Origin: Ancylobacter crimeensis
Lineage (GTDB): Bacteria; Pseudomonadota; Alphaproteobacteria; Rhizobiales; Xanthobacteraceae
Assembly (NCBI RefSeq): GCF_023016805.1
Contig: NZ_JALKCH010000002.1
Span: forward strand, 1-64,000
Direction of reading: 5' to 3'
Length of the DNA: 64,000 nt
Position 1 is the stretch's first letter. The number at the start of each line of letters is the position of its first letter. A model generated the notes under the pieces. That model worked only from the letters and a program-made list of their open reading frames with translations. It did no database searches and had not been told where the DNA came from. Below, in pieces: positions 23,171 to 51,288 of the stretch. A program made the position numbers and the translations under genes.

Positions 23171-23194
23171 CCTTCAAGTTGCAAACCTGCCACG

Positions 23195-23218
23195 AGGCCC
23201 CCAAGCGGGGCTTTTTTC
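23195..23218 (+). terminator. Rho-independent terminator after tRNA-Ser
   Basis: A GCCCC/GGGGC stem (23197-23201 with 23207-23211, extendable by two pairs) has a short loop and is followed by TTTTTT. It lies about 25 nt after the tRNA 3' end. Confidence 0.8.
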
Positions 23219-23545
23219 TTTTTATCTCAAAGGGGTTTGGCGGCTGGGCCCGCCCTGCGGAGACTGGCGCCGCGGCTGATATTGGTCTCTGAACCGCCAG
23301 CGTCTCTCTTCGAGCGCCCTGCCCGCACAGTAGGTCGGGTTCAGAAAATGGCGCCATACCAGCATCTTAACAAAAACCAGCCTCGGCGAAGTTGAAGTGG
23401 AGACATCCGGTAGGCGGCGGATCGGAGACACCCGCAGGCGGCGTGGTCTCGCGCAGCGGCGCGGGCAAGTATGCAGAAGGCGGCCGAAATAGGATTCCCT
23501 CATTTGCCACAATCGCTTAGAGTTATCCACAAAAGGGTATGAGGC
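23219..23545. other. Left island border region with an imperfect tandem repeat
   Basis: 327 bp without a gene. An imperfect duplication of about 25 nt lies at 23399-23423 and 23424-23448, each copy beginning GGAGACA and containing AGGCGGCG. The A/T-richer stretch just upstream of 23546 should hold the promoter of the DUF5131/tcmP operon. No integrase gene or tRNA 3'-end copy is visible here. Confidence 0.4.
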
Positions 23546-24313
23546 ATGGCACAGAAATCCGAGATCGAGTGGACGGACGCGACATGGAATCCGGTCACCG
23601 GCTGTACCAAGGTCGGTCCGGGTTGCGACAACTGCTACGCAGAGCGCTTCGCGGAACGCTGGCGTGGCATTGCCGGCCACCCCTACGAACAGGGCTTTGA
23701 CCTGAAGCTCTGGCCCTCCCGGCTAGAGCAGCCCTTCCTGTGGAAGAAGCCTCGCATGATCTTCGTCAATTCGATGAGTGATCTCTTCCATAAAAACATA
23801 GACCGCACCTTCATCGACCAAGTGTTCGACGCCATGGAGCGTGCGGACTGGCACGTCTATCAGGTGCTGACCAAGCGCAGCTCGCTCATGCGCAACTATG
23901 TCCGAGCGCGCTATTCAGGTGGTCCGGTACCACGTCATATCTGGCTTGGCGTCTCGGTGGAGGATGCTGCACATACCAGCCGTGTCGAGCATCTGAAGGG
24001 AGTCAACTCAGAGGCGCGCTTCATTTCGTTCGAGCCTCTGTTGGGGCGGATTGAGGAGGTAGACCTGCGCGGCGTCGCTTGGGCAATCGTCGGTGGCGAA
24101 AGCGGTCCTGGTGCCCGACCGATGCAGGCCGACTGGGCACGACGGCTCCGTGACATCTGCGATCGCGACGACGTGGCTTTCTTCTTCAAGCAATGGGGCG
24201 GTGCCCGGCCGAAGTCAGGCGGCAGACTGCTCGATGGCGAGGAATGGAACGGGTTCCCTTGGCAGATAGTCCCCAAACCGATTCTTGACGCTCTGCAACC
24301 CGAGAGCGTTTAA
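23546..24313 (+). CDS. DUF5131 (phage Gp37/Gp68) family protein, three-Cys-motif protein
   Basis: A 255-residue protein with the family signature at the N-terminus: IEWTDATWNPVTGC followed by Cys-x6-Cys-x2-Cys (C20, C27, C30). This resembles an iron-sulfur-binding, radical-SAM-like motif, although homology to true radical SAM enzymes is not established. Further conserved parts are FVNSMSDLFH, VLTKRS and WAIVGGESGPGARPM. The family occurs in phages and mobile elements and is usually next to tcmP, as here: the stop and the tcmP ATG overlap by 1 nt (TAATG). Function unknown; nucleic-acid modification or repair is a reasonable guess. Confidence 0.9.
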   Translation: MAQKSEIEWTDATWNPVTGCTKVGPGCDNCYAERFAERWRGIAGHPYEQGFDLKLWPSRLEQPFLWKKPRMIFVNSMSDLFHKNIDRTFIDQVFDAMERADWHVYQVLTKRSSLMRNYVRARYSGGPVPRHIWLGVSVEDAAHTSRVEHLKGVNSEARFISFEPLLGRIEEVDLRGVAWAIVGGESGPGARPMQADWARRLRDICDRDDVAFFFKQWGGARPKSGGRLLDGEEWNGFPWQIVPKPILDALQPESV

Positions 24314-25497
24314 TGCAGCTTAACATCAACCATTACCAGGGCCGCGAACAGTCATTTATCAAACACCTATTCTTGCAGAAGTATCTGGAGAATGCGGCCT
24401 ATAAGCTTTTTCAGGGACGTTCGCCCGTCTTCAATTTTGTCGATGCTTTCGCCGGTCCTTGGCGGAATTCGGACTCCGAATCCCTGTCAGATACGTCGTT
24501 TGCTCTCGCGCTGACAACGCTCGAAAATGTCCGCGGTATCCTCACGAATCTCGGCCACTCGAATCTCAGGGTCCGTTTCCGGTTTTGCGAGAAGAACCCC
24601 GAGTCTCTCGCCAAGCTCCAAGCATTTGCTGAAAGCAAAACTGATTTCGATATCAAGGTGTTCTCAGGCGCGTTCGAGGACAACCTTGCAGGTATTCAGG
24701 CAGCTTGCAGCGACGTTAGAGACAGCTTCACGTTCACATTCATCGACCCAACCGGATGGAATGTCGATAGCCGCCCGATCTTCTCGTTTTTGAAGGATCT
24801 GCGTGGTGAGGTTCTGTTCAACTTCATGTCGGAGCATGTGAACCGTCATGCGGGATGGGATGGTGTTGCGACGTCGGTCGGGCGCTTCCTTGCTGACCCG
24901 GCCTGGCGGCCGGCCTTCGAGGCTCTTCCCGACATTTCCAACGAGGAGAAGGTTCTCAGGCTCTTCAAGGGCAAGATGAAGGAAGCGGGTGCTGCCACGC
25001 ATCTGCCCGACATCATGATCCGTAAGCCTCGGGAAGACCGCATCAAGATGCGGCTGATCCTTGGCACGCACAATTCGCACGGAGTTTCGGTTTTTCGTGA
25101 TGTGCAGGCACTCGTCGAAAAGGAAGCCATTCGTACAAGGCAGAACATCAAGATAACCGAGAGCGGCCAACCGTCACTGTTCTCAGAGGAACAGATCATT
25201 GAATTCGAGGCCCAACGCGATGGTGTCGGTTGCGCAGCAAACATGGGTTGGGCGACCGAAACGCTGCTCGGGCTGGTGCGATCACAACCAGGCATCGCGT
25301 TCGAGAGCGCTGCGCCTCTCGTCATGGAGCAGGTTCCTGTACGCGGGACCCACGTCAAGGATATCGCTGTGGGCCAGCACAAGGCGGGCTTTTTGCGTTT
25401 CGATCTGCCGCAGGGGAAGCGCAAGCCCCAAGCCGACACAAAGCTCTATCCCGCGGCATCAGAAGCTGCTGATGACAGGCCGACTTCTTCCCTCTAG
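24313..25497 (+). CDS. tcmP: Three-Cys-motif partner protein TcmP
   Basis: A 394-residue protein recognised as TcmP by its start (INHYQGREQSFIKHLFLQKY) and its constant pairing with a DUF5131 gene. Segments resemble a Rossmann-fold methyltransferase: VDAFAGPW at 43-50 looks like motif I, FCEKNP at 91-96 supplies a motif II acid, and FIDPTGW at 143-149 sits where a DPPY-like motif would. This is my reading, not an established assignment. The C-terminal 150 residues have no recognised domain. It is translationally coupled to the DUF5131 gene and probably works with it, perhaps in modification or defence. Confidence 0.85.
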   Translation: MQLNINHYQGREQSFIKHLFLQKYLENAAYKLFQGRSPVFNFVDAFAGPWRNSDSESLSDTSFALALTTLENVRGILTNLGHSNLRVRFRFCEKNPESLAKLQAFAESKTDFDIKVFSGAFEDNLAGIQAACSDVRDSFTFTFIDPTGWNVDSRPIFSFLKDLRGEVLFNFMSEHVNRHAGWDGVATSVGRFLADPAWRPAFEALPDISNEEKVLRLFKGKMKEAGAATHLPDIMIRKPREDRIKMRLILGTHNSHGVSVFRDVQALVEKEAIRTRQNIKITESGQPSLFSEEQIIEFEAQRDGVGCAANMGWATETLLGLVRSQPGIAFESAAPLVMEQVPVRGTHVKDIAVGQHKAGFLRFDLPQGKRKPQADTKLYPAASEAADDRPTSSL

Positions 25498-26121: not shown

Positions 26122-26359
26122 CTGTCTCGCCTGGCTCAGAGACGAGACGTTCGAATTTCGCGGCGACAAGCATCGCAAGCTCCTCGAGCAGCTGTTCGAC
26201 GCCTACTGGGCGGGGAAACCAGTGCTGCGTGTCACCGTGACACTCGCGGAGGCCGGGTTCTCGGACAAGACGAACAGCCTGTCGAAAGCGTTCAGCGGGC
26301 GAGACGACTGGCAGAAGTTCATCCGACAATCGGAAGGGAACTGCTGGATCGAGGTCTGA
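26122..26359 (+). pseudogene. C-terminal remnant of an unidentified gene
   Basis: In a different frame from the DUF3883 fragment, about 78 codons read as a sensible protein C-terminus: WLRDETFEFRGDKHRKLLEQ, then LAEAGFSDK and GNCWIEV, ending at a stop at 26357-26359. A terminator hairpin follows 26 nt later. There is no start codon of its own. It is the tail of a gene whose 5' part was lost in the same event that truncated the DUF3883 gene. Function not recognised. Confidence 0.6.
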
Positions 26360-26608: not shown

Positions 26609-26920
26609 AATACCATCACTCTGACCGCGCCCTATGCCGTCGTCTCCGGCGAGGGCCTGCTCGTCGGCTCCATCTTCGGCGTGGGCGCGGGCACCGCGGC
26701 CAGTGGCGAACCCGTCGAGACCGCGCTCGTTGGCGTCTTCGACCTGACGAAGGTCGGCAGCCAGGCCTGGACCGTCGGCGCGAAAGTCTATTGGGACGAT
26801 ACCAACAAGCGCACCACGACCGTCTCGACCGACAACACGTTGATCGGTGTGGCCGTCGAGGCGGTGGCGAGCGGCGCGGGCGACACCATCGGCAGGGTGC
26901 GCCTGAACGCGAGCTTCTGA
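26609..26920 (+). pseudogene. DUF2190 family phage capsid-decoration-like protein, 5'-truncated
   Basis: 103 codons from NTITLTAPYAVVSGEG to the TGA at 26918-26920 match DUF2190 proteins, small phage structural proteins near the capsid gene. Only the first several residues, including the start codon, are missing. The family usually starts six to ten residues before this segment. No in-frame start with a ribosome site is seen close upstream, so it is probably not translated. It marks the left edge of what survives of the prophage. Confidence 0.75.
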
Positions 26921-27231
26921 TGAGTGCTTTCGCCGCCGCCGTCGACGCGCTCTTCGCCGATCCGAACATTGGGCGGGCCGCAGTCTACATCGCCGATGGC
27001 GGTGCGCCCGTTCCGGTGCGCGTCGTCCCCCGACGGGCCGATGCGATCACGGACTTCGGTGATGCGCGGCTCTGGTCGGAAGCAACGCGGATCGATCTCC
27101 GCGTGGGCGAGGTTCCCAACCCGCGTCCCGGCGATCGCATCGAGATCAGCGGCGACGCCTTCCTCATTCAGGGTGAACCCGTCCGCGACCGCGAACGGCT
27201 CGTATGGACGCTCGATCTGAGGCCCGCATGA
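26920..27231 (+). CDS. Phage head-tail joining protein
   Basis: A 103-residue protein (starts MSAFAAAVDALFADPNIGRAA) of the head-tail joining type: all-beta, with the conserved RVGEVPNPRPGDRIEISGD region. The ATG overlaps the TGA of the DUF2190 fragment (TGATG) and its own stop overlaps the next start by ATGA, so it belongs to the phage late operon. In a virion it would sit at the head-tail interface. With the head genes gone it may have no partner. Confidence 0.75.
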   Translation: MSAFAAAVDALFADPNIGRAAVYIADGGAPVPVRVVPRRADAITDFGDARLWSEATRIDLRVGEVPNPRPGDRIEISGDAFLIQGEPVRDRERLVWTLDLRPA

Positions 27232-27860
27232 AACTTGGCATCGGCATCGTCGGCGATATCGTCCGCTTGATAGAAGGGGAAGTGAAGGCCGGGGAGAAGG
27301 CCGTCACCACGGCGATGCGCGATGCCGGGACCGGCCTCAAGACCGCCTGGCGCGCGCAGATCACCGGCGCGGGTCTCGGGGCACGGCTTGCCCGCACCAT
27401 CCGGTCGGAGCAGTTCCCGAAAGGCAGGACCAGCCTCAATGCGGCAGCGCTGGTCTGGTCGAAGGCGCCGGTGATCGTCGGCGCGCACGATACCGGCCCG
27501 CTGATCCGCTCGAAGAACGGGTTCTGGCTGGCGATCCCGACGCCTGCGGCGGGCAAGTCCCTGCGCGGCGGACGGATCACCCCCGGTGAATGGGAACGTC
27601 GCACCGGCCTGCGCCTGCGCTTCGTCTATCGCCGGACGGGTCCGAGCCTGCTGGTCGCCGAGGGGCGACTGAACAAGAAGGGCCGTGCCGTGGCATCGCG
27701 GTCGAAGACTGGCCGGGGACTGACCACCGTGCCGATCTTCCTGCTGGTCCCGCAGGTGAGACTGCCGAAGCGGCTGGACCTCGCGCGGGATGCCGAGCGG
27801 GTGCGCGATGCGGTGCCGGGGCTGATCGTGGCGAACTGGGTAGAAGTGCAGTTACGATAA
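27228..27860 (+). CDS. DUF6441 family phage protein
   Basis: A 210-residue basic protein (start MKLGIGIVGDIVRLIEGEVK) matching DUF6441, found between the head-tail joining and tail genes of alphaproteobacterial siphophages. Its role is probably tail completion or head-tail connection; the position suggests a counterpart of the gpZ/neck-type protein. It overlaps the previous gene by 4 nt. The next phage gene in this strand is 839 nt away because a gene of opposite orientation has been inserted. Confidence 0.7.
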   Translation: MKLGIGIVGDIVRLIEGEVKAGEKAVTTAMRDAGTGLKTAWRAQITGAGLGARLARTIRSEQFPKGRTSLNAAALVWSKAPVIVGAHDTGPLIRSKNGFWLAIPTPAAGKSLRGGRITPGEWERRTGLRLRFVYRRTGPSLLVAEGRLNKKGRAVASRSKTGRGLTTVPIFLLVPQVRLPKRLDLARDAERVRDAVPGLIVANWVEVQLR

Positions 27861-27918
27861 AGTGTGGAAGATTGCCGCTTGGGATATTGGCTCGTGCGTG
27901 CTCCAGCCCAGCCGTTGT

Positions 27919-28617
27919 TCAATGAACCAGAACCTCGGACGCATTTCTAAGAAGTTGCCCCAGAATCGTCGCCCGCGAGTCCCCGTTGTTTGGGCGAGCC
28001 TTAAGATAGTGTCCGGCTTGCTGGATGAGATTAACGTTCCGCTTGAGCCCAGTCGGAAAAAGGGCACCGGCGTCGAATGCCACGTTCAGCCTGTCTAGAG
28101 AAGACTTACTACGGTGCGCAAGATTATTTCTCGCTGCTATCGCGGCGTTTACGACCGCCCGTTGCTGGGCGTTCATATTTGTGAACCGCTGTGCGTGTGC
28201 CGCCACGAGCCATTGCTGAGCCCGGTCTTCGATTGCTCCAAAGTCGGGAAAGGACGTGTTCCGGCCTTCCGGATCGAGAATTTCTTTGAGTTCAGCCTTC
28301 GTGAGATGATCTCTATGCTGGAAATCCCCAAACTTATTAAATGCGGCTTCTGCTTTGGGTGATGCGTGCAAGCAAGCGCGAAGGCTGTTCTCAAGGTGCT
28401 CCATGACTTTCGAGCAGTCTCTGTTGGCATATGCGAAAATTAGATCGTTTACATATCCCTCAAACATAACGCCGATGGTCAGTACGTAGTTTTCGGTCGC
28501 GATCTTTCTGTCGTCTGCTCCCGCGAGAGTGTTCCACGATTTTTGGTAATACGCGAATTGCTCGTCAAGCTGCGCAGCAAAATCGTTCCAAACACCATCC
28601 GGACTGATCTTTCGCAT
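27919..28617 (-). CDS. HEPN-like domain protein (phage moron)
   Basis: A 232-residue all-helical protein on the opposite strand to the tail operon. It has the HEPN-type motif Arg-x4-His (RNNLAH, residues 163-168) and an upstream helix with an acidic residue (GVMFEGYVNDLIFAY, 48-63), which resembles HEPN ribonucleases of the RiboL-PSP/MAE-type. Base composition of 27861-28690 is visibly more A/T-rich than the flanking phage genes, so it is probably a later insertion. HEPN proteins are often toxins or abortive-infection RNases. No antitoxin partner is adjacent. Family assignment rests on motif reading only. Confidence 0.65.
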   Translation of the reverse strand: MRKISPDGVWNDFAAQLDEQFAYYQKSWNTLAGADDRKIATENYVLTIGVMFEGYVNDLIFAYANRDCSKVMEHLENSLRACLHASPKAEAAFNKFGDFQHRDHLTKAELKEILDPEGRNTSFPDFGAIEDRAQQWLVAAHAQRFTNMNAQQRAVVNAAIAARNNLAHRSKSSLDRLNVAFDAGALFPTGLKRNVNLIQQAGHYLKARPNNGDSRATILGQLLRNASEVLVH

Positions 28618-28699
28618 GTGATTCCGCCTCCCGCAGCTCCCATACTTGGCAAGGTAATCGGAACTAACTCACTGCGCCACATAGAGAAGACGGTTCGAG

Positions 28700-29119
28700 A
28701 TGCCCACCCACCGTGAAGCCATCCTCGCCGCGCTGCACACGCGGCTTTCGGCGCTGCCCGCCGCCGCCCTCCGCGGCGAGGTCCTGCCGGAACGTGTGCC
28801 GGCAGCCGGGTTGCTGATCCTGCGCGACGGAGAACCCGGCGAGCCCGAGGTGACGCTCTCGCCCTTGCGCTATCACTACCAGCACCGTGCCGAGATCGAA
28901 GCCGTAGTGCAGGGCGCGAGCCGGGACACGGGTTTCGACACGCTCTGCACCAGTATCGGCGCGGCGCTCGCCGCCGACCGCACGCTCGGTGGTCTCTGCG
29001 ACTGGGTCGAGGCGGAAGCCCCGCAGCCCGTCGATCTGCCGGTGGACGGCGCGGCCAGCCTGAAGGCGGCCGTCATTCCGGTGGTGCTGCATTATTCCAC
29101 GGCCGATCCGCTCGGCTGA
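28700..29119 (+). CDS. Phage tail terminator-like protein
   Basis: A 139-residue protein (HREAILAALHTRLSALP start) typical of the minor tail / tail terminator gene preceding the tail tube gene. Homologues are sometimes mislabelled acyl-CoA transferase. It would cap the tail tube. It resumes the phage operon after the inserted HEPN-like gene, and the tail tube gene follows 23 nt later. Confidence 0.7.
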   Translation: MPTHREAILAALHTRLSALPAAALRGEVLPERVPAAGLLILRDGEPGEPEVTLSPLRYHYQHRAEIEAVVQGASRDTGFDTLCTSIGAALAADRTLGGLCDWVEAEAPQPVDLPVDGAASLKAAVIPVVLHYSTADPLG

Positions 29120-29142
29120 ACCCCTTCTACAAGGAGACCGAC

Positions 29143-30087
29143 ATGGCACGCGCCCAAGGGGCGCGGGCGCGGATGGCGCTCGCGTTCGAGACGACCTATG
29201 GCACGCCGCCCGGCAGCGGCTATACGAGGATGCCCTTTGCCAGCGCCACGCTCGGGGCGGAACAGCCGCTCCTGAACTCGGAGCTTCTGGGCTACGGCCG
29301 CGATCCTCTTGCGCCCATCAAGGACGCGGTGACCGCCGATGGCGATGTGGTGGTGCCGATCGATGCCGAGGCCTTCGGCTTCTGGCTGAAGGCGGCCTTC
29401 GGCGCGCCCACCACCACCGGAAGCTCTCCCGGTCCATATACCCATACGTTCCAGTCCGGCAACTGGACGCTGCCCAGCATGGCGATCGAGACCGCCATGC
29501 CCGAGGTGCCGCGCTACGCCATGTATTCCGGCGTGGTGCTGGACCAGCTTAGCTGGCAGATGCAGCGATCCGGCCTGCTCACCGCCACGGCACGGCTGGT
29601 GGCGCAGGGCGAGACGGTTGCTACCACCAGCGGTGCGGGAACACCGACGGAGCTCGACCTGATCCGTTTCGGGCATTTCAACGGCGCGATCAAACGCAAC
29701 GGCACCGCCCTGGGCAACGTGATCTCGACCGAAATCACCTATGCCAACAACCTCGACCGGATCGAGACCATCCGTGCCGACGGCATGATCGACGGCGCCG
29801 ATCCCTCGATCGCCGCGCTCACCGGCCGCACCGAGGTGCGTTTCGCCGACAGCACGCTCGTCAGCCAGGCGATCAGCGGTACCCCCTGCGAACTGGAGTT
29901 CGCCTACGGCCTGACCTCGGGCCAGAGCTTCACCTTCACCGTCCACGCCGTCTATCTGCCGCGCCCGCGGATCGAGATTTCCGGACCGCAGGGCGTGCAG
30001 GCCAGCTTCGACTGGCAGGCCGCCCGCGACGCCGCGCTGGGACGGATGTGCACCGCCGTTCTCGTCAACGATATCGAAAGCTACTGA
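29143..30087 (+). CDS. Phage tail tube protein (major tail protein)
   Basis: A 314-residue structural protein of the tail tube type (ALAFETTYGTPPGSGYTRMPF start; GQSFTFTVHAVYLPRPRIE near the end), length typical for siphophages. A good AAGGAG ribosome site lies before the ATG. Its location directly upstream of the frameshifting chaperone gene is the canonical order. Confidence 0.85.
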   Translation: MARAQGARARMALAFETTYGTPPGSGYTRMPFASATLGAEQPLLNSELLGYGRDPLAPIKDAVTADGDVVVPIDAEAFGFWLKAAFGAPTTTGSSPGPYTHTFQSGNWTLPSMAIETAMPEVPRYAMYSGVVLDQLSWQMQRSGLLTATARLVAQGETVATTSGAGTPTELDLIRFGHFNGAIKRNGTALGNVISTEITYANNLDRIETIRADGMIDGADPSIAALTGRTEVRFADSTLVSQAISGTPCELEFAYGLTSGQSFTFTVHAVYLPRPRIEISGPQGVQASFDWQAARDAALGRMCTAVLVNDIESY

Positions 30088-30088
30088 C

Positions 30089-30526
30089 ATGATCCGTCTC
30101 GACCTTTCCAGCGAACCGAAATGGCTCGATCTGGGCCACGGCCTGCGCCTGCACATTCTGCCCGTCACCACCGCGATCATGGTCGCCGCACGCAACGACC
30201 CAGTTGTCGAGACGCTGCCCGAAGGGACGAGCAAGGAGGAGCAGGCACTGATCATGGCGAAGGCGGTCGCCCGCCGCGTGGTCACCGGCTGGGAAGGTGT
30301 CGGCGATGCCGACGGCGATCCAGTTCCCGTCACACCGGAAGGGATCGACGCGCTTCTGAACATCTGGCCGGTGTTCGAGGCCTTCCAGACCCGCTGCCTC
30401 GCGCCGCACCTGATGTTGGACGCGGAAAAAAACGCCTCCGCGCCCTCGCAGACTGGCACCTCGGCGGGGGCGAAAGCTACTGCGAAGCCTGCGCGGGCCC
30501 GTGCCCGAACTGCCCGGCGCGGCTGA
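30089..30526 (+). CDS. Phage tail assembly chaperone, zero-frame product (gpG-like)
   Basis: A 145-residue protein starting MIRLDLSSEPKWLDLGHGL, the short tail-assembly chaperone. The C-terminal 30 codons after the slippery site are Ala/Thr/Arg-rich. It starts 1 nt after the tail tube stop codon. In lambda-type phages such a protein (gpG) and a less abundant frameshift product (gpGT) coat the tape measure protein during tail assembly. Confidence 0.8.
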   Translation: MIRLDLSSEPKWLDLGHGLRLHILPVTTAIMVAARNDPVVETLPEGTSKEEQALIMAKAVARRVVTGWEGVGDADGDPVPVTPEGIDALLNIWPVFEAFQTRCLAPHLMLDAEKNASAPSQTGTSAGAKATAKPARARARTARRG

Positions 30527-30780
30527 ACTACCCGCTGACGCCGGAAGGCTGGCAGGTCTGGGATCTGGCGCTGCGCCTGACCGGGCAGCTTCGCGTCGCG
30601 GCCGGCATGGGCGGGACCATAGTGCTCGGCTGGGACATGACGGCCGCGCTCGCGATGGCGCGGGCGCTCGGGGTCGATCCGCTGATCGCCGCCGAATGCC
30701 TGCCAGAGATCGAGGCGGTGATGGTCCGCAAACTCAACGAGCAGATGGCCCGCGACGAAAGGCCGGATTTCAGGGCTTGA
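30089..30780 (+). CDS. Phage tail assembly chaperone, -1 frameshift fusion (gpGT-like)
   Basis: Reading 30089-30433 in frame and then slipping back one base at the A-AAA-AAC heptamer gives a fusion of about 230 residues. The shifted part (RLRALADWHLGGG, then a Cys-rich CEACAGPCPNC) runs to the TGA at 30778-30780. It contains a sensible folded segment (VWDLALRLTGQLRVAAGM) that has no start codon of its own. This is the expected T domain that recruits the tail tube subunit. The fusion coordinates are a reading of sequence; efficiency is unknown. Confidence 0.75.
30427..30433 (+). promoter_or_regulatory. Programmed -1 ribosomal frameshift slippery heptamer
   Basis: A AAA AAC in the zero frame (codons GAA AAA AAC), part of a run of seven A residues in an otherwise GC-rich gene. 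This is the canonical X XXY YYZ heptamer. The overlap of the two frames continues to 30526. Confidence 0.8.
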
Positions 30781-31150
30781 TCTTCTCGATCAGCGTCACG
30801 CCCGGCAGCCCGTCGAAATGCGCATCGCAGGTGATCAGCGTGGCGTCCTGCGCGCGGGCGGTGGCGAAGACGATGGCGTCGGCGGTCGCGAGCTTGTGCA
30901 CACGGCAGGCCTCGGCCGCCGCCAGAGCGACTTCGGTGTCGAGCGGTACGACGTGGCAGAGCTGCGTGAAGGCGATCACCTGATCGGCCTTGTCCTCACC
31001 CACCTCGCGGGCGAGCCATTTCGCCAGTTCGAGCTGCACCATGGTCGGCACCAGCCAGTCGGATTGCTCGGGCAGATGCGCAGTCACTGCCTCGCCGGTC
31101 GGCGAACCGATCAGCCATTCGATCCAGGCGGACGTGTCGACGAGACGCAT
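30770..31150 (-). CDS. vapC: VapC-type PIN domain toxin ribonuclease
   Basis: A 126-residue PIN-domain protein. Metal-binding acids are visible: Asp5 in MRLVDTSAW, then Asp in ATADAIVFATA and Asp in LITCDAHF. It should cleave RNA when free of its antitoxin. It is coupled to vapB by a 1-nt overlap (TGATG) and lies convergent to the tail chaperone gene, overlapping its frameshifted end by 11 nt. It is inserted between the tail chaperone and tape measure genes, so it is cargo (moron) in the phage operon. Confidence 0.88.
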   Translation of the reverse strand: MRLVDTSAWIEWLIGSPTGEAVTAHLPEQSDWLVPTMVQLELAKWLAREVGEDKADQVIAFTQLCHVVPLDTEVALAAAEACRVHKLATADAIVFATARAQDATLITCDAHFDGLPGVTLIEKIKP

Positions 31151-31362
31151 CAGACGCGATCCGACCGGTCCCGGTAATCGGTCGCGGACGCACCTTTCGC
31201 GATCCCGGCCAGCGCCTCGCGCTTCGGCACCGGCACGAGCAGCACGCCGGTTCCCTTGGGGATGAAAGCGAAGGTCAGCCCGGCTTCCCAGTGCTGGGCC
31301 GCGCGGATCGCCTTGGGGATCGAGATCTGGAACTTCGAGGACAGGGTGGCGGTCTCGGACAT
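31150..31362 (-). CDS. vapB: VapB-type AbrB/MazE-fold antitoxin
   Basis: A 70-residue swapped-hairpin DNA-binding antitoxin: LSSKFQISIPKAIRAAQHWE is the AbrB/SpoVT signature, and the C-terminal tail would wrap the toxin. First gene of the vapBC pair. It normally represses its own promoter, which must lie in 31363-31434 between it and the tape measure gene. Confidence 0.87.
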   Translation of the reverse strand: MSETATLSSKFQISIPKAIRAAQHWEAGLTFAFIPKGTGVLLVPVPKREALAGIAKGASATDYRDRSDRV

Positions 31363-31434
31363 GTTCCTACCTTCGGTTTATCGATGCAAAAAACGTAAGA
31401 CAAACGCTCGCCGTTTTCAAGGACTCCCCGACAG

Positions 31435-32757: not shown

Positions 32758-33383
32758 TGGCTTTCCACGAGGTCCGTTTCCCGGACGACATCAGCCGTGG
32801 TGCGCGCGGCGGACCGGAGCGGCGCACCCAGATCGTGGAACTGGCCTCGGGCGACGAGGAACGCAACGCCAGCTGGGCGAACTCGCGCCGCCGCTATGAC
32901 GTGGCCTATGGCATCCGTCGTGCCGACGATCTCGCGGCAGTGGTCGCCTTCTTCGAGGCGCGAAACGGCCGCCTTCACGGCTTCCGCTTCAAGGACTGGG
33001 CCGACTTCAAGTCCTGCCTGCCGTCGCAGGCACCGAGCGCAACCGACCAGCAGATCGGCACCGGCGACGGCACGACAACGCAATTCCAGCTCGCGAAGCG
33101 CTACGCCTCCGGCGCGCAGTCCTGGACACGCAGCATCGCCAAGCCGGTCACCGGTAGCGTGCGTGTCGCGCTCGCGGGCGTCGAACAGATGTCGGGCTGG
33201 TCGGTCGATACCACGACCGGCCTCGTCACCTTCGGCTCCGCACCCGGTGCAGGCGTCGCCATCACGGCGGGCTTCGCGTTCGACGTGCCGGTCCGCTTCG
33301 ACACCGATGCGCTCGACGTCACCCTCGATCTCGAACGCCTTGGCTCGATCACTTCCATCCCGCTGCTGGAGATCCGCAGATGA
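32757..33383 (+). CDS. DUF2460 family phage distal tail protein (GTA gp12-like)
   Basis: A 208-residue protein, start MAFHEVRFPDDISRGARGGP, the signature of the DUF2460/TIGR02217 family found in gene transfer agents and related siphophages. It forms the distal tail ring. The ATG overlaps the tape measure stop by 1 nt and its stop overlaps the next start by 4 nt. Confidence 0.88.
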   Translation: MAFHEVRFPDDISRGARGGPERRTQIVELASGDEERNASWANSRRRYDVAYGIRRADDLAAVVAFFEARNGRLHGFRFKDWADFKSCLPSQAPSATDQQIGTGDGTTTQFQLAKRYASGAQSWTRSIAKPVTGSVRVALAGVEQMSGWSVDTTTGLVTFGSAPGAGVAITAGFAFDVPVRFDTDALDVTLDLERLGSITSIPLLEIRR

Positions 33384-33730: not shown

Positions 33731-33854
33731 GCTGCTCCGCCTCGCGCGCTTCATTCGCTGCGACCCCATCGCCCCGCGTCAGGCTTTCGCCCACCGCCTG
33801 CGCATCGGCATCGCCGTCGCAGCTCTCATTCTGACCCTCTCGCTTCTGGGGTGA
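33723..33854 (+). CDS. Very small membrane protein in the lysis cassette
   Basis: A 43-codon frame (starts MHELLRLARFIRCDPIAPRQ, ends in a hydrophobic segment IAVAALILTLSLLG) overlaps the holin-like gene by 8 nt and ends 4 nt before the endolysin start. It has one predicted membrane helix. Tight packing supports translation. It could be a spanin-like or anti-holin peptide. No homology recognised. Confidence 0.5.
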   Translation: MHELLRLARFIRCDPIAPRQAFAHRLRIGIAVAALILTLSLLG

Positions 33855-33858
33855 TCCC

Positions 33859-40053: not shown

Positions 40054-40061
40054 GAACGCCC

Positions 40062-43851: not shown

Positions 43852-44695
43852 CGATGACCTCTCGATTCAGAAGCACGATCTGCTGATCCTGGGGCCGCCT
43901 GGCGGCCGGGTCTGTATCGAGTCCAAGACGACGCAGAGCGTAATACAGGAGCGCGCGCCTGACTTTGATCCTGGCCTTACCACCGCGCATGCCGTAGTCG
44001 AGCGCAATCACCTTTGCCTGTGTTTCAGAGAGTGCGGGGTGCGGTCCCACCTCCAGCGTAACCTCGGAGTTCCAGTCACAGTCGTTGTCCGCTGACACGC
44101 CGCTCTCCCGCGAACCGCGAATTTCAAGAATCCGGGAGAGCAAGAAATCCTTGAAGGCCTCGTCAGTCAGGCAGAACGCGCGGGTGTGCCAGCGGAACCC
44201 GTCAAACGCGATGGCGTGCGGAGCGATCCACCGCCACCGGGGCTCCGGGCTTGAAAGGGACTGGTACTTCACCTCAATCGCCTCGGCCCGCCGAATGGCA
44301 CCGACGACCGACCGGAGCATTGCGGGGTTGACGCCGCGAACCGGCGTCGGAGCGGATGCGTAGGGCGGGAGATCGGCGATCCAGGAATCCTCGCGATCAA
44401 GGATCCCATCGGCCACCGACCGCAACTGGGCGAGGTAGCGGCTGGCGTCGGGTTCGAGGAACTGCGGCTTGAACTCGGGGCCCCGGACATAGGTCCGCGC
44501 ACTCTTGTCGTAGACCATGTTCTCCGGAGCGAAGCCAATATAGCGATTCAGGTCGGTGGACGCCTGGTTCACCGAGACCCCGAACTGGTCCATCAAATCG
44601 CTACGGTTCACATGGCCCTCCCAGAACAGACGGAACTCTATGAACTCGAGGCGCTGCTCGACCCCCCAACGAAGTTCCGCCCTGTCGTTATCCAC
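43835..44695 (-). CDS. WYL domain transcriptional regulator (BrxR/CapW-like)
   Basis: A 286-residue regulator: N-terminal winged helix (QRLEFIEFRLFWEGHVNRSD, then FGVSVNQASTDLNRYI), middle WYL domain with SPEPRWRWIAPHAIAFDGFRWH, and C-terminal dimerisation region. The N-terminal segment strongly recalls the BrxR/CapW regulators that sit at the head of BREX, CBASS and similar defence loci and sense a nucleic-acid or nucleotide signal. It is upstream of and overlaps the helicase gene, so it probably controls it. It looks intact. Confidence 0.82.
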   Translation of the reverse strand: MDNDRAELRWGVEQRLEFIEFRLFWEGHVNRSDLMDQFGVSVNQASTDLNRYIGFAPENMVYDKSARTYVRGPEFKPQFLEPDASRYLAQLRSVADGILDREDSWIADLPPYASAPTPVRGVNPAMLRSVVGAIRRAEAIEVKYQSLSSPEPRWRWIAPHAIAFDGFRWHTRAFCLTDEAFKDFLLSRILEIRGSRESGVSADNDCDWNSEVTLEVGPHPALSETQAKVIALDYGMRGGKARIKVRRALLYYALRRLGLDTDPAARRPQDQQIVLLNREVIDADHR

Positions 44696-44725: not shown

Positions 44726-45352
44726 TTAACTATGCACACCCAATTTCTGTGCTGACGCTACCCGAGTGGTAAAGCGTGAGCAATCGAAATTGCGCGTAAA
44801 GCGTTTGAATCGGTAGGTGATCTGACTTTGTGGTGTTGACGAGAAAGGGGCGTGCCGAGATGCATCAAGCCTCGACACGCCCAGAGAATGACGCAGCCGC
44901 ACATGCGGCCACGCGGCCGGCGAAAACTCGAGCCGGCCTGGCGGGCTCCGAGCGGGTTCTTCCGGAACGCCACGCTCGATGGCACGCCGGATCATCTTGT
45001 GCTCCTGGACCGGCGACAACCGGCTGATCCGCTTGTTGTAGGTGAAGGCTTCGTCGTCGGTGGAGACCAGGCACTCGACCTGTTCGATGCCGAGGTCTTT
45101 AAGCACCTCGATGCGAACATGCCCGTCCAGCAGAAGGAAGGTGCCCGGATTTGCGGGATCGCGGGCGACCACGGGCGGTTCGACGAGACCGACCTCGCGG
45201 ATCGACGCGGTGATCTGCTGGTATTTCTTGCTGGATTTCGTGGCCGTCCGAAGCACCCGCACCGGCAGAAGGGCGTCCACGGCCAGGGTCACGCAGTCGT
45301 CTTCAAAGGCATGGGCAACGACATCGGGAAGGCGGCGATCTTTCCGTGTCAT
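44726..45352 (-). pseudogene. ParB/RepB nuclease-fold partition-like protein, 3'-truncated
   Basis: The first about 130 codons (45352 to about 44985) match ParB/Spo0J N-terminal domains: LPVRVLRTATKSSKKYQQI, then VGLVEPPVVARDP and FLLLDGHVRIEVLKDLGI. After the AIERGVPEE segment, where relatives continue into a helix-turn-helix, the sequence turns into about 75 unrelated codons. The start overlaps the upstream RepB-like gene by 4 nt (ATGA), a normal arrangement for this tandem pair on mobile elements. The 3' part has been replaced by DNA I cannot identify (44726-44985). Confidence 0.7.
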
Positions 45353-45757
45353 GGATCCGTCCTCGCGTGTTCCTCCAGATAGGTGGGCATCACCGCGAGG
45401 CTTTCGGCACGCAGCAGCGTCAGGAAGTTCTCGTCGCTCCGCAGCGAGCGGAACGCCTCCGTGACGAAGAGAAGCCGGCCTTGGGTCAGCTCCGCCTTCT
45501 TGATCATCAGCTTCTGGCGATCGGCTTCCTGACGATAGGCGCGCACGAGCGCATCGCTGGTCAGGGGGCGCCCGGAGCGGTTCACTTTGCGGCCGAAGGG
45601 CGTTTCATCGACGCGCCGCCCATGGCGCTGGCGTCGTTCGAGCAGGCGCCGCACGGCCGCGAATTTCTTCCCGCGCAGCTTCTTTTCGGTATAGGCATCC
45701 ATGAGCGCGCGCTGGGCACCTTCGTCGTCCGCTCTGGAGATTTCGATCGCGAGGTTC
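45349..45757 (-). pseudogene. RepB-type plasmid-partition-like protein, 5'-truncated
   Basis: The C-terminal about 133 codons match RepB-type ParB proteins: ISRADDEGAQRALMDAYTEK, KKFAAVRRLLERRQRHGRR and LRSDENFLTLLRAESLAVMP. The whole ParB nuclease-fold N-terminal half is missing. Upstream of about 45757 the DNA belongs to a recombinase C-terminus in another frame. It is the first of the tandem partition-like pair and has lost its start. Confidence 0.7.
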
Positions 45758-46075
45758 GTCCATGCGTATGGCGATGGTGATGTCCGGCAAGAGTCCCGTG
45801 TCGAGGCGGATGCGCCAGCGCAACGAGCCTGCCGCGGTCTCGAAGCATCGCGACAGCACGACCGATACCGTGAATTCGCCATTGACGGTCAGAAGCTCGG
45901 TCCGGGGGTCCTGAACGGCATTGCCACCGGCGTTTTCGATCCCAGCGACGACGCCCGCGACGATCTGCGGATGTGCCTCGCGGAGCTTGCGGTTGATCTC
46001 GATGTATCGGTAGTCGCGGTCGGGCTGATAGCCGACCATCTCGTAGGCGCGCAGCAGGCTGCCGAAGCCGGATAT
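45758..46075 (-). pseudogene. Fragment of an element-borne recombinase-family protein (C-terminal region)
   Basis: In the frame opposite to the IS fragment, about 105 codons read ISGFGSLLRAYEMVGYQPDR, DYRYIEINRKLREAHPQIV, then RLDTGLLPDITIAIRMDE. I recognise this as the C-terminal part of proteins annotated as recombinases that precede the RepB/ParB-like pair on alphaproteobacterial islands; the function of this part is unclear. It is cut at the 5' side by IS3-type DNA (about 46070) and at the 3' side by the RepB-like fragment (about 45757). Confidence 0.55.
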
Positions 46076-46452
46076 CTTCAATACCGACCAGGGCTCGCAG
46101 TTCACCAGCCGCGAGTTCACCGGCCTGCTGATCGCAGCCGACATCAGGATCAGCATGGACGGCAAGGGCGCCTGGCGCGACAACGTCTTCGTCGAACGCC
46201 TCTGGAAATCGGTCAAATACGAGGAGGTCTATCTGCGCGCCTATGCCAGTGTGTCGGAAGCACGCGCCTCGATCGGCCGATATCTCGACTTCTATAACAG
46301 CCGGAGGCCTCATCAGGGACTGGCCCGGCAGACGCCCGACCAAGCCTACTTCAACGCGCTGCTGCCAATCCCGGCGGCGGCATAACCGAGGCCGAAACCC
46401 ACTTAGCGACAACGCCAAAACTGTTCAGATCAACCGAGCCAGCTCTCAGCGG
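46066..46452 (+). mobile_element. IS3-family insertion sequence remnant (3' end of transposase orfB)
   Basis: The plus-strand frame to the TAA at 46385 encodes the last about 105 residues of an IS3-type DDE transposase: IFNTDQGSQFTSREFTG with the second catalytic Asp, NVFVERLWKSVKYEEVYL with the catalytic Glu, and FYNSRRPHQGLARQTPDQAY. About 67 nt of non-coding IS end follow, up to the edge of the serine recombinase fragment at about 46453. The left two thirds of the element are missing, so it is inactive. Confidence 0.82.
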
Positions 46453-46845
46453 CATGATCTGCCGCATCATGACGTGCATGGGGTCATCCCCCATTTCCTG
46501 AGTGATCGAAACCAGCTTCACGCCATTCTTCGCCAGCTTGCGGACATAGAACTCAAGCTCGAAGTGATCGCGGAAGAACCGGCTGAACGAATGGACCACG
46601 ACTACATCAAAGGGTGCGGGCTTGGACGTTCCCGCCTCGATCATGCGCTGGAACTCGGGGCGGCGGTCGTTGGTGGCCGATGCGCCGGGTTCGATGAAGG
46701 TTTCGACCAGTTGCAGGTTGCGGGACTCGCAATAGGCTTCGCCCTGCCGCTTCTGATCGGGAATGGAAACGTCATGCTCGGCCTGCCGCGCAGTTGAGAC
46801 GCGCAGGTAAAGAGCAGCGCGTAGCGGCACGGTGGAAGCGGTCAT
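46453..46845 (-). pseudogene. Serine recombinase (resolvase family), 3'-truncated by IS3
   Basis: The start is MTASTVPLRAALYLRVSTAR with the catalytic Ser in LRVSTARQ, then IPDQKRQGEAYCESRNL, VVVHSFSRFFRDHFELEFYV and MHVMMRQIM. This is the resolvase/invertase N-terminal catalytic domain, about 131 codons. Just after MMRQIM, where relatives continue to the large recombinase domain, it runs into the IS3 end. The catalytic domain is nearly complete but the DNA-binding part is lost. Confidence 0.78.
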
Positions 46846-46885
46846 AATCTGTTTCCTTTCAAAGCCGGTCGAACGAACGAGGTCG

Positions 46886-47218
46886 CTATTCAGCGGCCTC
46901 CCGGATCGTCCCGACGATCCATTCATTCAGGCTCTTGCCCGATGCTGCTGCGGCAATGACTGCTGCGGCATGGTCGTCAGGGGTGAGGCGGACATTGAAC
47001 TTGCCGGAGAACTTCCGGCGCGGCTCGATGCCCTTCTCCCGGCACATTTCGAGATAGACGGCCAACGACTTGCGGCCTTCCTCGATCAGATCGTGGACGC
47101 TCTCGGCATAGAAGTCGGCCCCGCCATTGAGGCCGACAAACTCGCCGCGCAGCATTTGAATCTCGGGATCGAAAGCGATGACCGCCTTCTCGCCATTGAT
47201 TTCAACGACATTGTTCAT
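46886..47218 (-). CDS. hicB: HicB family antitoxin
   Basis: A protein of about 110 residues: a partial RNase-H-like HicB fold (AVIAFDPEIQMLRGEFVG, then DFYAESVHDLIEEGRKSL) followed by a ribbon-helix-helix C-terminus (FSGKFNVRLTPDDHAAAVIA, then SGKSLNEWIVGTI). It neutralises HicA and represses the operon. The ATG at 47218 overlaps the hicA stop by ATGA; an upstream ATG is inside hicA and unlikely. Confidence 0.88.
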   Translation of the reverse strand: MNNVVEINGEKAVIAFDPEIQMLRGEFVGLNGGADFYAESVHDLIEEGRKSLAVYLEMCREKGIEPRRKFSGKFNVRLTPDDHAAAVIAAAASGKSLNEWIVGTIREAAE

Positions 47219-47469
47219 AGCTTTACTCCGTGTTCGTCCAGCCATTTTCGGATGCTGGCAACCGCACCTTTGTCCGTGTCCGGTGACGGATGCGGACGAT
47301 GAAAGACGCGCACTTCACCGAACAGGAACACGCCGACGCGCGAACCTTCCCGCTCGCTGACCTCCGCCCCGAGGCTCACAAACAGCGCCTCTATGTCGGC
47401 CCAGCGGATCGACCCGTTGACCGGGCGGGCGAAGATCAGTTCCAGCGTGGCTCTGTGACGCTTTTTCAT
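47215..47469 (-). CDS. hicA: HicA family mRNA interferase toxin
   Basis: An 84-residue toxin: KKRHRATLELIFARPVNGSI at the N-terminus and VFHRPHPSPDTDKGAVASIR, which is the HicA C-terminal signature. It cleaves mRNA when free. It lies upstream of and overlaps hicB. The G-x-H catalytic region reads EGSRVGVF, with Arg in place of the usual His, which may weaken activity. Confidence 0.85.
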   Translation of the reverse strand: MKKRHRATLELIFARPVNGSIRWADIEALFVSLGAEVSEREGSRVGVFLFGEVRVFHRPHPSPDTDKGAVASIRKWLDEHGVKL

Positions 47470-47485
47470 AGAGCGTCCAGTATCA

Positions 47486-47800
47486 TTATTTAGTACCGTT
47501 TTCAAGATCGATTTCGGTCCCGGCATCGGGCGATCCGATATCGGGGCCAAAGAGTTCATCGAACAGGTCGCCGAACCAACGCTCGAACACCTCGATCTCG
47601 GCTTCCGTGACCGGAATGGGATCGGGCCAGTCATCGGTGACAGTCCATGAGCTAAGGTCGTGCTTGGGCGGCCTGCCGGGGAACGGCCAAGGATAGCCCA
47701 GCAACTCCTCAAGCTGTTCTGAAGCCGTAGGCGGTCGTTTGGTACGCCGGGATCGGGATGCCGTCACCGGCTTGTGGTCACCGTTGCGGTCAGAAGTCAT
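47486..47800 (-). CDS. Hypothetical acidic protein
   Basis: A 104-residue protein with a basic N-terminal third and an acidic C-terminal part (VTEAEIEVFERWFGDLFDEL). It overlaps the AlpA remnant by 11 nt and precedes hicA by 16 nt, all in the same direction. No domain recognised. Probably an element-specific gene; function unknown. Confidence 0.5.
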   Translation of the reverse strand: MTSDRNGDHKPVTASRSRRTKRPPTASEQLEELLGYPWPFPGRPPKHDLSSWTVTDDWPDPIPVTEAEIEVFERWFGDLFDELFGPDIGSPDAGTEIDLENGTK

Positions 47801-47961
47801 CGAGGAATTCAAATTCGTTGAACGAACGCTGCCGCCATCCGACCGGGTTGGCGACCCAGCGATTGATGTCGGATTCCTTCCAGCCCGCGCCATTGGTGCT
47901 GATCTTGATCTGGGCGGGAAAGGTGCCTTCGACGATCTTGCGATAGATGGTGGTCTCGGTC
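47790..47961 (-). pseudogene. AlpA-type DNA-binding protein, C-terminal remnant (first copy)
   Basis: The last about 56 codons read TTIYRKIVEGTFPAQIKIST, GAGWKESDINRWVANPVGWR. This is the helix-turn-helix and C-terminus of an AlpA family regulator/excisionase. The N-terminal 15-20 residues and start are missing. The upstream DNA at about 47962 switches frame into the TraA fragment, with a short shared sequence (GCGCAAGA region) at the join. Confidence 0.7.
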
Positions 47962-49933
47962 TTGCGCCTTGAAGATCGCATCCACGGCACGAGCATGACG
48001 GACAAAGGCCCGGCCACGGGCGCGGCGCGCCGCGGCCTCCGGGTCTTCCCCGATTTGCTGCTCTGCCAACGGCTTGCCGGTCCTTTCCCTTTCCCGGCCA
48101 GTTCCGGCTTCGGGGCCAGGCACGCCGTCGCCCGGCGCGCGCAATATGTCGAGCATGTCATCGACGGCATCGCGCACGCGCTCCGGCATCAGGCTTCGCA
48201 TGATCTGGGCGACACGGGCGCGGAAGGTGATGCCGCGCCGCTCGGCATAGTCCTGTGCCGGGTCGTAGTCCGTCGCCATGTCCTTGGCGCGGTCGCGCGA
48301 CAGAGTGCGGGCAAGACGATCCTGACTGGCGAAGTCGTCGCGGCCATAATGCAGGTCCATGCCGTCGCGGTGACGTGACAGGGCAACATAGCTGCCGTGG
48401 GCGTCCATGCCGGGCGTTGCCAACACATGCGTCCGGTCCACCGTCATGCCCTGCGCCTTGTGAATGGTCGCAGCATAGCCGTGGTCGATGCGATCATAGT
48501 CTTTCAGGTCAAAGGCGATGGATCGGCCATCGTCTGTCTGCACGGTCATGCTCTGCGCGCTGACCTGTTCGATGGTGCCGAGCGTGCCGTTCTTGACGCC
48601 AAGGCCGCGCTCGTTTTGCAGAAACATGACGCGATCCCCGCTGGCAAAATTCCGGTCGCCGCGCTTGACGGTCACGCGCATGTCCTCGCCCAGATCACCA
48701 GCCTCCCGCATCCTGTCGCGGGCAGCTTCTTTGAGTTCGCGCACCTCTGCATTGGTGTGGGTGAGGATGATGCGGCTGCTGTCCGGTTCTGCCTGACGCT
48801 GACGGTCCCATCTGTCGATCAGATCGCCGCGCGCCTGCTCGCGCGTTTCGGCGGAATGCACCATGCCGTGACGGTCATAGGCGCTGATGGCATTGCCGGT
48901 TCTTCCTGTCGCTAGATCACGGGTCGCGCCACGCTGCCAGTCCTCGCGCTGGCGGCGCACCTCATGGATTTCCACGCCACCATGACGCTCATGAATCGAA
49001 CGGAACGCTGCACCTGCTTCGATAGATTGCAACTGCTGCGGATCGCCGACCAGAACAACCTTTGCGCCTGCCTCGGCGGCATGGGACAGCACCCGCTCCA
49101 TCTGCCGCGCGCCGACCATGCCCGCCCCGTCGATGACAAGCACGTCGCGGCTGGTGAGCATGTCGCGGCCATTCTGCCAGCCGTGTTCCATGCTGGCGAT
49201 GGTGCGCGAGGCGATGCCCGACCCGCCTTCCAGATTCTCGGCGGCGATGCCGGACAGGGCAACCCCGCGAACCTCAAAGCCCGCCGCTTCCCATGCCTCG
49301 CGGGCCACGCCAAGCATGGCGCTCTTTCCTGTACCGGCATAGCCGACGACAACGCCAAGATCACGCCCGTCCGTGACATGCGCCAGCGCGTCGGCCTGCT
49401 CGCCGGAAAGGATAAGGCCGCGCTGTTCCGCTCGGGCAAGGGCTTCCTGCCTGTCCCGGTCGCTGACCTCGTGCAATTCCTTCTCGGCCATCAATTCCGC
49501 CGCACGATGCAAACGCTGTTCGGTCTCGATCATGTCGCGGGTGGTGAATCGGTCCTCGCCGCGTCCGTCTTGACCCAATTCGACCAGATCGGGCGAATTG
49601 CGCATCGCACCCATGACCTCGTTGAACTGGTCGATGCCGTCGCTGTGCCGGTGCGCAAACTTCACCATGTCGCGCCGTGTGAAGGTCGATTGTTGCTGCG
49701 TGATGGCGTCCAACGCCACGGATGGATCGGCGATGATCCGTTCGCCATTGTTGGGGGCGATCTCCCGGTGCATGTCGGCGCGGTCGGCGGCTTCGATACC
49801 TTCGCCCTCGATGCGTTGCGCGGGCGCGCCGATCTGGCTTTGCGGCTCCAGCGCAATGCCCTGCGCCTCAAGGCTGCGATGGTCGATCCGCGCGTCGATG
49901 TCGAGTTCGGAAAGCCGTTCGTTGACATGCTTG
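47962..49933 (-). pseudogene. traA: TraA-type conjugative relaxase/helicase, both ends truncated
   Basis: About 657 codons of a Ti-type TraA. The tail of the MobA/MobL relaxase domain (NERLSELDIDARIDHRSLEA) is followed by the RecD-like helicase (VVVGYAGTGKSAML Walker A; VVLVGDPQQLQSIEAGAAF; HGYAATIHKAQGMT). The relaxase catalytic domain is absent. The Walker B motif, normally DEAGM, reads DGAGM, so the catalytic Glu is Gly. Upstream it is joined in frame to a primase fragment at about 49933. Downstream it ends at about 47962 against AlpA DNA. It cannot nick oriT and is probably dead. Confidence 0.82.
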
Positions 49934-50977
49934 TCTTCGGCGCTCAGGAACAGGACGGGACCGGCGGCGGGAACGGTGTTTAGCCAGCAGCGATTTGCCC
50001 GTGCCGCCATCGCCGCCCAGCAGGGTCACGGTGCGGGCCGGGATCAGATCGCGCACCAGCCATCGCCGCTCCGGGACAGGGTGGCCTGCCAGATCGGAGG
50101 CCGGGAAGGGGCCGGGAGCCGATGGCGGTGCGGGGATGGTGGGCGGCGGTTCATGACCGAAGACAAGCGCTCCGCGCATCGCGGGTGAGAGACGCTGCAC
50201 CATCCAGCCCCAGCCGAGTGAAGTCCCCTTGTCGAATGAGCGCCATAGCCGCTCGTTGGCGCGCAGATCGTTCGCTCGATAACCGGCGCACCATCCATCG
50301 AACACCGCACGGGCCATGGTGTCGGGCATGATGCCGGTGGCGGACTGGCGAAAAGCAGCGGTCACGTCCCGCCACTCGTCATACCCTAGATCATTCGGCC
50401 GGAAGCTCATGAGCGCGAATGTGGCGGCATCGGCGGACGGCGCACGTTCCGTCCCGAGCGGCATCCGGCCTGCCGCCGCTGCCCCACCGTGGCGCGCACC
50501 GGGCATCAGCAGCCAATCGGGTGCCGGCACGGCGGGCTGGCTCAGATCGGCCCCGTAATAGACGACATAGCCGCCATCCCCGCGCCGGTCGAGGCCCGGA
50601 CCCAGCACCCCGGCATCGGTCGGTGCGTGCACCCCGGCAGCGAAGCGAAAGAAGACATGCAGCCCGCCCGATGGCGTGGGAGACTGGACGGCATCGGCTG
50701 GGATGGGGATGCCCAGCCCTGCGAGCGTGGCAAAACCGTCCCTGCCGGGCTTTCGATCAATATCGAGAACCAGCCAGCCCGACGCAGCGCCGGTCGGGAT
50801 ACCGATACCTGCATCCGGCCATTGGCTCCACCACGCTCGCAGGGCGTTTTCGTCCGTGGTGGCAGATTTGAAGCCGCCGGGTACGTAGGGGGCCTTGTCG
50901 GAGCGGACAGGAAAGACAGGAATGCCGAGCGCGGCAAGGCGCAGGGCCTCGACCACACCGGAGGGGCGCGTTATCAT
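49934..50977 (-). pseudogene. Bifunctional primase-polymerase with RepA-like AAA domain, 3'-truncated
   Basis: Starts with MITRPSGVVEALRLAALGIP, the prim-pol fold of mobile-element replication proteins (WLVLDIDRKPGRDGFATL; GGLHVFFRFAAG), about 330 residues. The AAA ATPase part begins with Walker A GGDGGTGKS, then is broken. At about 49984 a small deletion removes roughly a dozen residues and shifts the frame; the continuation LNTVPAAGPVLFLSAED is readable in the next frame. It stops at about 49933, where TraA begins. The start ATG at 50977 is solid. Confidence 0.78.
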
Positions 50978-51114
50978 GGGGCACTCATTCGATGTGACTT
51001 CGGCCGGCGCCTTCGGGTGTCCGGCCGTTTCTTTTGGCCGGTAAGCCGAATACTGAAAAATAACGTAATTAAATCAAATCATTATCGACGATATGGCGGA
51101 GGATCACTCCTCCT
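50978..51114 (-). promoter_or_regulatory. Leader region of the primase gene with hairpin and A/T-rich tract
   Basis: A G/C hairpin (GGCCGG at 51002-51007 with CCGGCC at 51021-51026, followed on the plus strand by a T-rich stretch) lies just upstream of the primase start. A strongly A/T-rich tract spans 51051-51093. The tract is the likely promoter or unwinding region of the replication gene; the hairpin would read as a terminator only on the plus strand. No repeats of iteron type are evident. Confidence 0.35.
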
Positions 51115-51267
51115 TCACGCGCTCATGGCCTGATTTTCCCAAGCGAGAACGTCGCTAAGACGCCACCGGGTGCAGCCGGCGGACAGGCGCACGGGCTTGG
51201 GGAAGGTGGGCTCACTACCGGCACGACGCCATATCGTTGATGGTGATACGCCGATGCGCTCAGCGAA
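51115..51267 (-). pseudogene. AlpA-type DNA-binding protein, 5'-truncated (second copy, right island edge)
   Basis: About 50 codons, readable only without a start: AERIGVSPSTIWRRAGSEPT, FPKPVRLSAGCTRWRLSDVL, ending AMSA and TGA at 51117-51115. This matches the C-terminal three quarters of AlpA family proteins. The N-terminus (about 15 residues) is missing because the DNA joins the end of the Mrp-operon gene at about 51268-51288. It lies directly upstream of the primase, as expected in the intact element. Confidence 0.7.
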
Positions 51268-51288
51268 CCCGGGCGGTTCGGTGCCGAT

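Follow-up and report, generated by a model that had tools for sequence, protein, structure and literature searches.

A composite island at a tRNA-Ser hotspot in Ancylobacter crimeensis, probably decayed recently by many large deletions

Introduction

The closest described counterparts of the locus reported here, an island beside a tRNA-Ser(GGA) gene of Ancylobacter crimeensis, are cryptic prophages, decayed integrative elements at tRNA genes and phage-borne defence cargo sites. Cryptic (defective) prophages keep tail and accessory genes while integrase, replication and packaging genes are lost or truncated; the island does the same, but it is merged with the remains of other mobile elements and its truncated genes carry no internal stops. 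Like a decayed integrative element, it lies by a tRNA 3' end and holds truncated recombinase and TraA genes with intact relatives, and a related recombinase element adjoins that tRNA in five loci of the genus, with shorter remains in three more. Unlike such elements, it merges at least four sources, and no copy of the tRNA end was found downstream in the window. Its stretch from the DUF2793 and PDC-S14 genes to the WYL and AlpA-like genes resembles a phage-borne defence cargo site, occupied by BREX in a relative and by a helicase fragment here, except that the cargo has been cut off at 41718. Finally, most tail genes and a lysozyme are present and the tape measure is shortened, a gene content to be set beside that of a tailocin-like (tail-only) particle.

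The window, as we call the whole stretch that was analysed, comprises 64,000 nucleotides (NZ_JALKCH010000002.1, positions 1 to 64,000; G000:C19:1-64000, where G, C and L numbers are our handles for genomes, contigs and loci). The assembly is in 26 contigs, and the contig of the window is 476 kb long. We put a probability of roughly 0.8 on the following reading: a composite island at a tRNA-Ser hotspot, assembled from at least four sources, has recently decayed by many large deletions. The sources comprise a prophage that runs colinear with one in G009, a recombinase-hicAB-AlpA-TraA element, an AlpA-primase piece and defence cargo. The original prediction had proposed many internal deletions in one ancestral element; undeleted relatives bear out several independent deletions, but the single ancestral element gives way to at least four sources.

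Results

The eleven listed junctions are all real discontinuities, each within ~30 bp of its listed position. Corrected, they lie at 26122-26134, 26610, 41718, 44958, 45757, 46066, 46446/46447, 47953, 49931, 49984 and 51270-51288. Homology breaks abruptly with relatives on both sides at seven (26610, 41718, 44958 with one relative, 45757, 46066, 46446/46447 and 47953). At 26122-26134, 49931 and 51270-51288 only one side is backed by relatives, the other by a weak relative or a domain, and the discontinuity at 49984 is by domain reading only. In BLAST searches against the genus loci, similarity drops sharply at 44958, 45757, 46066, 46447, 47953 and 49931. A further junction at ~44814-44844 had escaped the earlier reading, as had 456 bp lacking at 34424-34737 by comparison with one relative. 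Alignment to related intact elements, proposed with that reading as its check, recovered undeleted forms and allowed losses to be measured at four joins: ~23 kb, 631, ~670 and 681 bp. Besides the edge of an IS3 element, at least eight further joins run directly from inside one gene into another; four are measured as deletions and the others are read as deletions.

The recombinase-hicAB-AlpA-TraA element (46447-49931) has intact forms in named genomes, from which we compared the best 80 of 92 loci encoding TraA relatives. Named relatives of the island's elements are mostly alphaproteobacterial. Both sides of the 47953 junction are matched in 66 of the 80; they are adjacent in none of these 66, and the gap between them is 604-4,916 bp (median 676). 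Measured against the closest loci (L113, L131, L162 and L178), the loss is ~681 bp. Under looser scoring one alignment in L132 ran 94 bp beyond 47953, although the two sides are still 606 bp further apart there. No match runs past 49970 or across 46447 in any of the 80 loci, and among the matches listed in 29 other genomes of the genus none crosses a junction between 44600 and 52000 by more than ~15 bp. No relative compared showed the same compact arrangement; one that did would have told against the earlier proposal of deletions. The compact arrangement could still be ancestral, or have been acquired already deleted from another strain, given that relatives of the pieces are spread over many lineages and that the collections mostly hold one genome per species and could miss a sister strain. 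Against the counts above, we consider this very improbable.

Within the element, 46447-47953 including hicAB forms a single contiguous block at 89-93% nucleotide identity in 7 of the 80 loci, so that a later insertion of hicAB, which the first genus relatives had suggested, was rejected. At its left end the break has another origin. The right end of the IS3 element at 46446/46447 lies inside the second serine recombinase gene, and this join is therefore an insertion edge and not a deletion. Ends of contigs C24 and C11 of the same genome carry the same IS3 element, C24 with its 5' continuation.

Sequence of the TraA element missing at 47953, 49931 and 46447 was not found elsewhere in the own genome at the expected identity (87-93%). 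An 8.4-kb query from L113 matched, besides the window, part of TraA in C11 at 82%, an AlpA-TraA stretch in C11 at 71%, the segment lost at 47953 included, and 99 bp of C22; both C11 matches are more diverged than expected. This genome search covered the TraA element and the first half of the PDC-S14 gene. TraA frames reach at least 900 aa in 69 of the 80 loci, are shorter in 10 and meet a contig edge in 1. Since these 10 loci are shortened and the C11 TraA also lacks its N-terminus, decay of this kind is, on this comparison, common; its density in this island is high. The C11 copy belongs to a second island (locus L040, 8104-10681), where TraA without its N-terminus abuts a truncated AbiEii gene and an integrase adjoins a gene read as GMP-synthase-like. 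Five internal losses of similar size were noted: 631, ~670 and 681 bp in the window, and 499 and 571 bp in L164 and L013, which hold two further TraA copies. A common deletion unit of ~650 bp was considered for them, but the likeness may be chance.

The stretch 26135-46066 is a prophage remnant colinear with 476-519 kb of G009:C5, where the prophage carries terminase, portal and capsid genes, a RepB pair and a recombinase. Compared with G009, packaging and capsid genes are absent and the prophage recombinase is reduced to a middle piece. The sides of 26610 are ~23.2 kb apart in G009, with the terminase, portal and capsid genes between them, and similarity to Shinella and to G492 starts at 26609. 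Upstream, the counterpart of the early-region fragment precedes the AlpA-like gene in G009 at equal spacing. The sides of 44958 are ~631 bp apart in G009; those of 45757 are ~670 bp apart in G009 and ~646-677 bp apart in L050 (G022), L041 and L044, the last two being diverged copies in the window's own genome. From the decoration gene to PDC-S14 the remnant is 73-84% identical to G492:C19, and Shinella is also close. G492 carries an extra ~500 bp near 40053; because Shinella also lacks it, we take it as an insertion in G492 and rejected a loss from the window.

Retention of genes between the junctions had been described as intact. The hicAB genes and the DUF5131/TcmP-type pair are indeed open full frames, but the tail module is not strictly untouched, because its tape-measure gene is 361 codons (exactly 1,083 bp) shorter, in frame, than in Shinella L094 and G492. 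About 80 bp at the tape-measure join fit neither side, and the short gene may be a deletion or a natural short form.

Comparisons also show where PDC-S36, PDC-S14 and the helicase are cut. The PDC-S36 match ends at residue 211-216 in 20 of the 23 rows besides the window's own and earlier in the other 3. PDC-S14 is 315 aa long in G492, the window match reaching only 41719, and its first half was not found elsewhere in the own genome. Twelve plasmid homologues of the helicase were listed out of 231 records; the match stops at residue 711 in 11 of them and at 776 in one, and the full gene in Neotabrizicola is 3,261 bp. The GMT-like (TcmP-type) gene has a weak family match (best E 7e-6). In G492, the span from PDC-S14 to a WYL gene, which has an HTH_17 (AlpA-like) gene next to it, contains BrxL, PglZ, PglX, BrxB and BrxA genes; the same cargo site in the window holds the WYL gene and the helicase fragment instead of BREX genes. 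The cargo site of G492:C19 spans L217 8713-17797 and L227 3326-5868.

Further right, the junctions at 49931 and 49984 separate TraA, an AAA_25 piece and a Prim-Pol gene. None of the TraA loci matches 49932-51288, which we therefore judged to be a separate piece. Across 297 genomes the best relative of the primase reaches 48% identity over partial length, and L193 has an AlpA-like match near its primase match. At 51270-51288 the chromosomal gene is a few codons shorter at its end than its counterparts in G005 and G017. The sequence that follows this gene in G005 was not found beside the island, and parts further along match contigs C11, C21 and C25 of the own genome.

Most of the genus loci fetched around the tRNA-Ser gene are conserved on the left (up to ~22.6 kb) and differ on the right. 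An element of 1.7-2.0 kb to the right of the tRNA is common to five loci (L060-L064); its recombinase gene matches 46447-46833 of the window, and L073, L078 and L067 retain only its first ~795, ~455 and ~217 bp. With the left flank conserved, the right side variable and the recombinase element present at several loci, the comparison indicates that the site is an integration hotspot with decay visible in other species of the genus. In L059 (G010), a 26-bp copy of the tRNA-Ser end lies 17.5 kb away; the 17.5-kb stretch so bounded (1327-18988) includes a 93-bp match to the DUF5131 gene of the window. A repeat of the tRNA end as the right attachment site of the island was rejected, since no exact copy of at least 10 bp of the tRNA 3' end occurs downstream on the + strand in the window; for the same reason a deletion also seems to mark the right boundary. 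No RNA family besides tRNA reached gathering scores in the window.

Overlaps at the joins are short. Read by eye between parents that are mostly 70-93% identical, they amount to ~1 bp (47953), 2 bp (41718), 2 bp (26610), 3 bp (44958), 0-3 bp (45757) and 4 bp (46066); random joins in the same DNA share 0.76 bp on average. The eight-bp microhomology claimed near 47962 (GCGCAAGA) was rejected, because the repeated stretch lies off the break and each parent carries it once. TGGC at 49984 is plausible as microhomology, but no close parent was found. The genome has two Ku genes, one of which adjoins LigD, and together with overlaps of ~0-4 bp these genes make end joining at the junctions plausible.

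Read in their best frames, the 12 fragments (2,787 codons) have 0 internal stops. For the 11 fragments other than the IS3 piece (2,680 codons), the absence of stops limits neutral divergence since inactivation to 0.012-0.014 per site, and inactivation therefore looks recent (<~1.4% neutral divergence). The same decay could have proceeded over a longer time by slippage or replication error, with neither end joining nor a burst of breaks, and this course is compatible with the anatomy of the island. Shortened TraA copies are no rarity (below 900 aa in 10 of 80 loci, with 1 more at a contig edge), and the bases shared at joins are little above chance; however, the lack of stops beside at least eight joins favours a short time. 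We regard slow decay as possible, at well under even odds. At the opposite extreme, the junctions could be scars left after double-strand breaks had struck foreign DNA in one or a few bursts and had been sealed by Ku and LigD, such that the island died by shattering and not by slow mutation. Such a burst might stem, for example, from self-attack, failed excision or host defence; the same process would then show in the TraA-AbiEii join of the second island and in the repeated losses of ~500-680 bp. This we think unlikely.

Several points weigh against recent decay by many large deletions. The junctions are known from the assembled contig, and the second side of several is given by domains or by a single weak relative. 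Three losses are alike in size (631, ~670 and 681 bp), which random decay would not predict. At least 1 bp is shared in 47% of random joins, and the count of zero stops takes in small frame-shifting indels only through their stops. Because two contig ends around IS3 carry 77-bp overlaps, the 382-bp IS3 piece could be mis-resolved. These overlaps in a 26-contig assembly, the similar losses and the stop-free fragments would also suit an assembly artefact, in which spurious joins closed gaps and the genes are whole in the cell. Yet none of the other contigs holds, at the expected identity, the missing segments that were searched for (TraA element, first half of PDC-S14), and some ten misjoins within one 476-kb contig would, in our judgement, be exceptional. 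Moreover, a TraA-AbiEii join of like style is present in the second island of the genome, and TraA is shortened in copies elsewhere as well, including one in a single-contig assembly (G023). An artefact is thus improbable.

Features are collected in Table 1; the names TraA, AlpA-like, TcmP-type and chromosomal subunit are partly domain readings and not family calls.

Table 1. Features of the island and its edges, by position in the window
Feature	Position	Strand	Remark
tRNA-Ser(GGA)	23081..23170	+	left edge of island; genus-wide integration hotspot
DUF5131 gene and GMT-like (TcmP-type) gene	23546..25497	+	candidate defence pair PDC-M30/M41; open frames of model length
PDC-S36, N-terminal ~205-213 aa	25507..26121	+	~280 aa in relatives
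Phage early-region gene, C-terminal fragment	26135..26359	+	36% identical to G009 protein
AlpA-like gene, first 30 aa	26521..26610	+	joined to phage head decoration gene at 26610; G492 relative is HTH_17
Phage decoration, connector and tail module	26612..41138	+	cement, head-tail attachment, DUF6441, tail terminator, tube, chaperone, baseplate hub, NlpC/P60, GTA_TIM/Rcc01698, DUF2793
Reverse-strand gene, 232 aa	27919..28617	-	without family match; a different reverse-strand gene here in G492
PIN-domain/MazE-like pair	30770..31362	-	present in G492 prophage too
Short tape-measure gene	31435-32757	+	within tail module
Phage lysozyme	33859..34533	+	present in G492 too
PDC-S14 (DUF4357), C-terminal 178 aa	41182..41718	-	GIY-YIG half lost
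HKD/SNF2 helicase, N-terminal 711 aa	41719..43851	-	in-frame fusion to S14 fragment at 41718
WYL-domain gene	43835..44695	-	
Phage fragment	44844..44959		counterpart position is a 105-aa frame in G009; joined to RepB-2 at 44958
RepB-2 (PF07506-type), N-terminal fragment	44957..45352	-	
RepB-1, C-terminal fragment	45352..45756	-	loss at 45757
Prophage's own serine recombinase, middle part	45755..46066	-	
IS3-family element, 3' part (rve_3)	46065..46446	+	382 bp
Second serine recombinase (Resolvase), N-terminal part	46447..46926	-	broken by IS3
hicB and hicA	46889..47490	-	
AlpA-like C-terminal fragment	47831..47953	-	named by reading
TraA-type relaxase/helicase fragment, ~656 codons	47954..49931	-	C-terminus lost at 47953, N-terminus at 49931
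Prim-Pol/PriCT-2/AAA_25 primase	49932..50977	-	small deletion at 49984 probable
AlpA-like gene (by reading) without start codon	51115..51288	-	abuts chromosomal gene end
Chromosomal gene	51289..53121	-	proton-transporter/hydrogenase-type subunit by reading, without family call; ends a few codons earlier than two relatives

Discussion

How might such an island have come about? A prophage with its own serine recombinase, a RepB pair and defence cargo by its tail genes, a TraA element and a primase-AlpA piece would have become neighbours, in an order of arrival that we infer. IS3 entered the second recombinase, as its right end shows. Four of the joins that run from inside one gene into another are measured deletions, and the others would have arisen likewise. 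The ~0-4 bp overlaps and the Ku and LigD genes suggest that double-strand breaks may have been sealed by end joining. Judged by its content, namely two truncated recombinase genes, a truncated TraA gene and no packaging or capsid genes, the island should no longer excise or transfer by its own means. Through selection or by accident, open full frames survive in two toxin-antitoxin-type pairs, in the DUF5131/TcmP-type pair and in most tail genes.

The island is a dense and recent case of otherwise ordinary island decay, and decay elsewhere in the genus supports this placing: the tRNA-Ser recombinase element is kept over unequal lengths in different loci. The prophage cargo site between PDC-S14 and the WYL and AlpA-like genes is a lead for the discovery of defence genes. 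With scars resolved to a few bases, undeleted relatives and a bound on its age, the island offers a direct test of how bacterial islands die, namely whether point mutations follow only after large deletions, and whether the deletions are the work of end joining.

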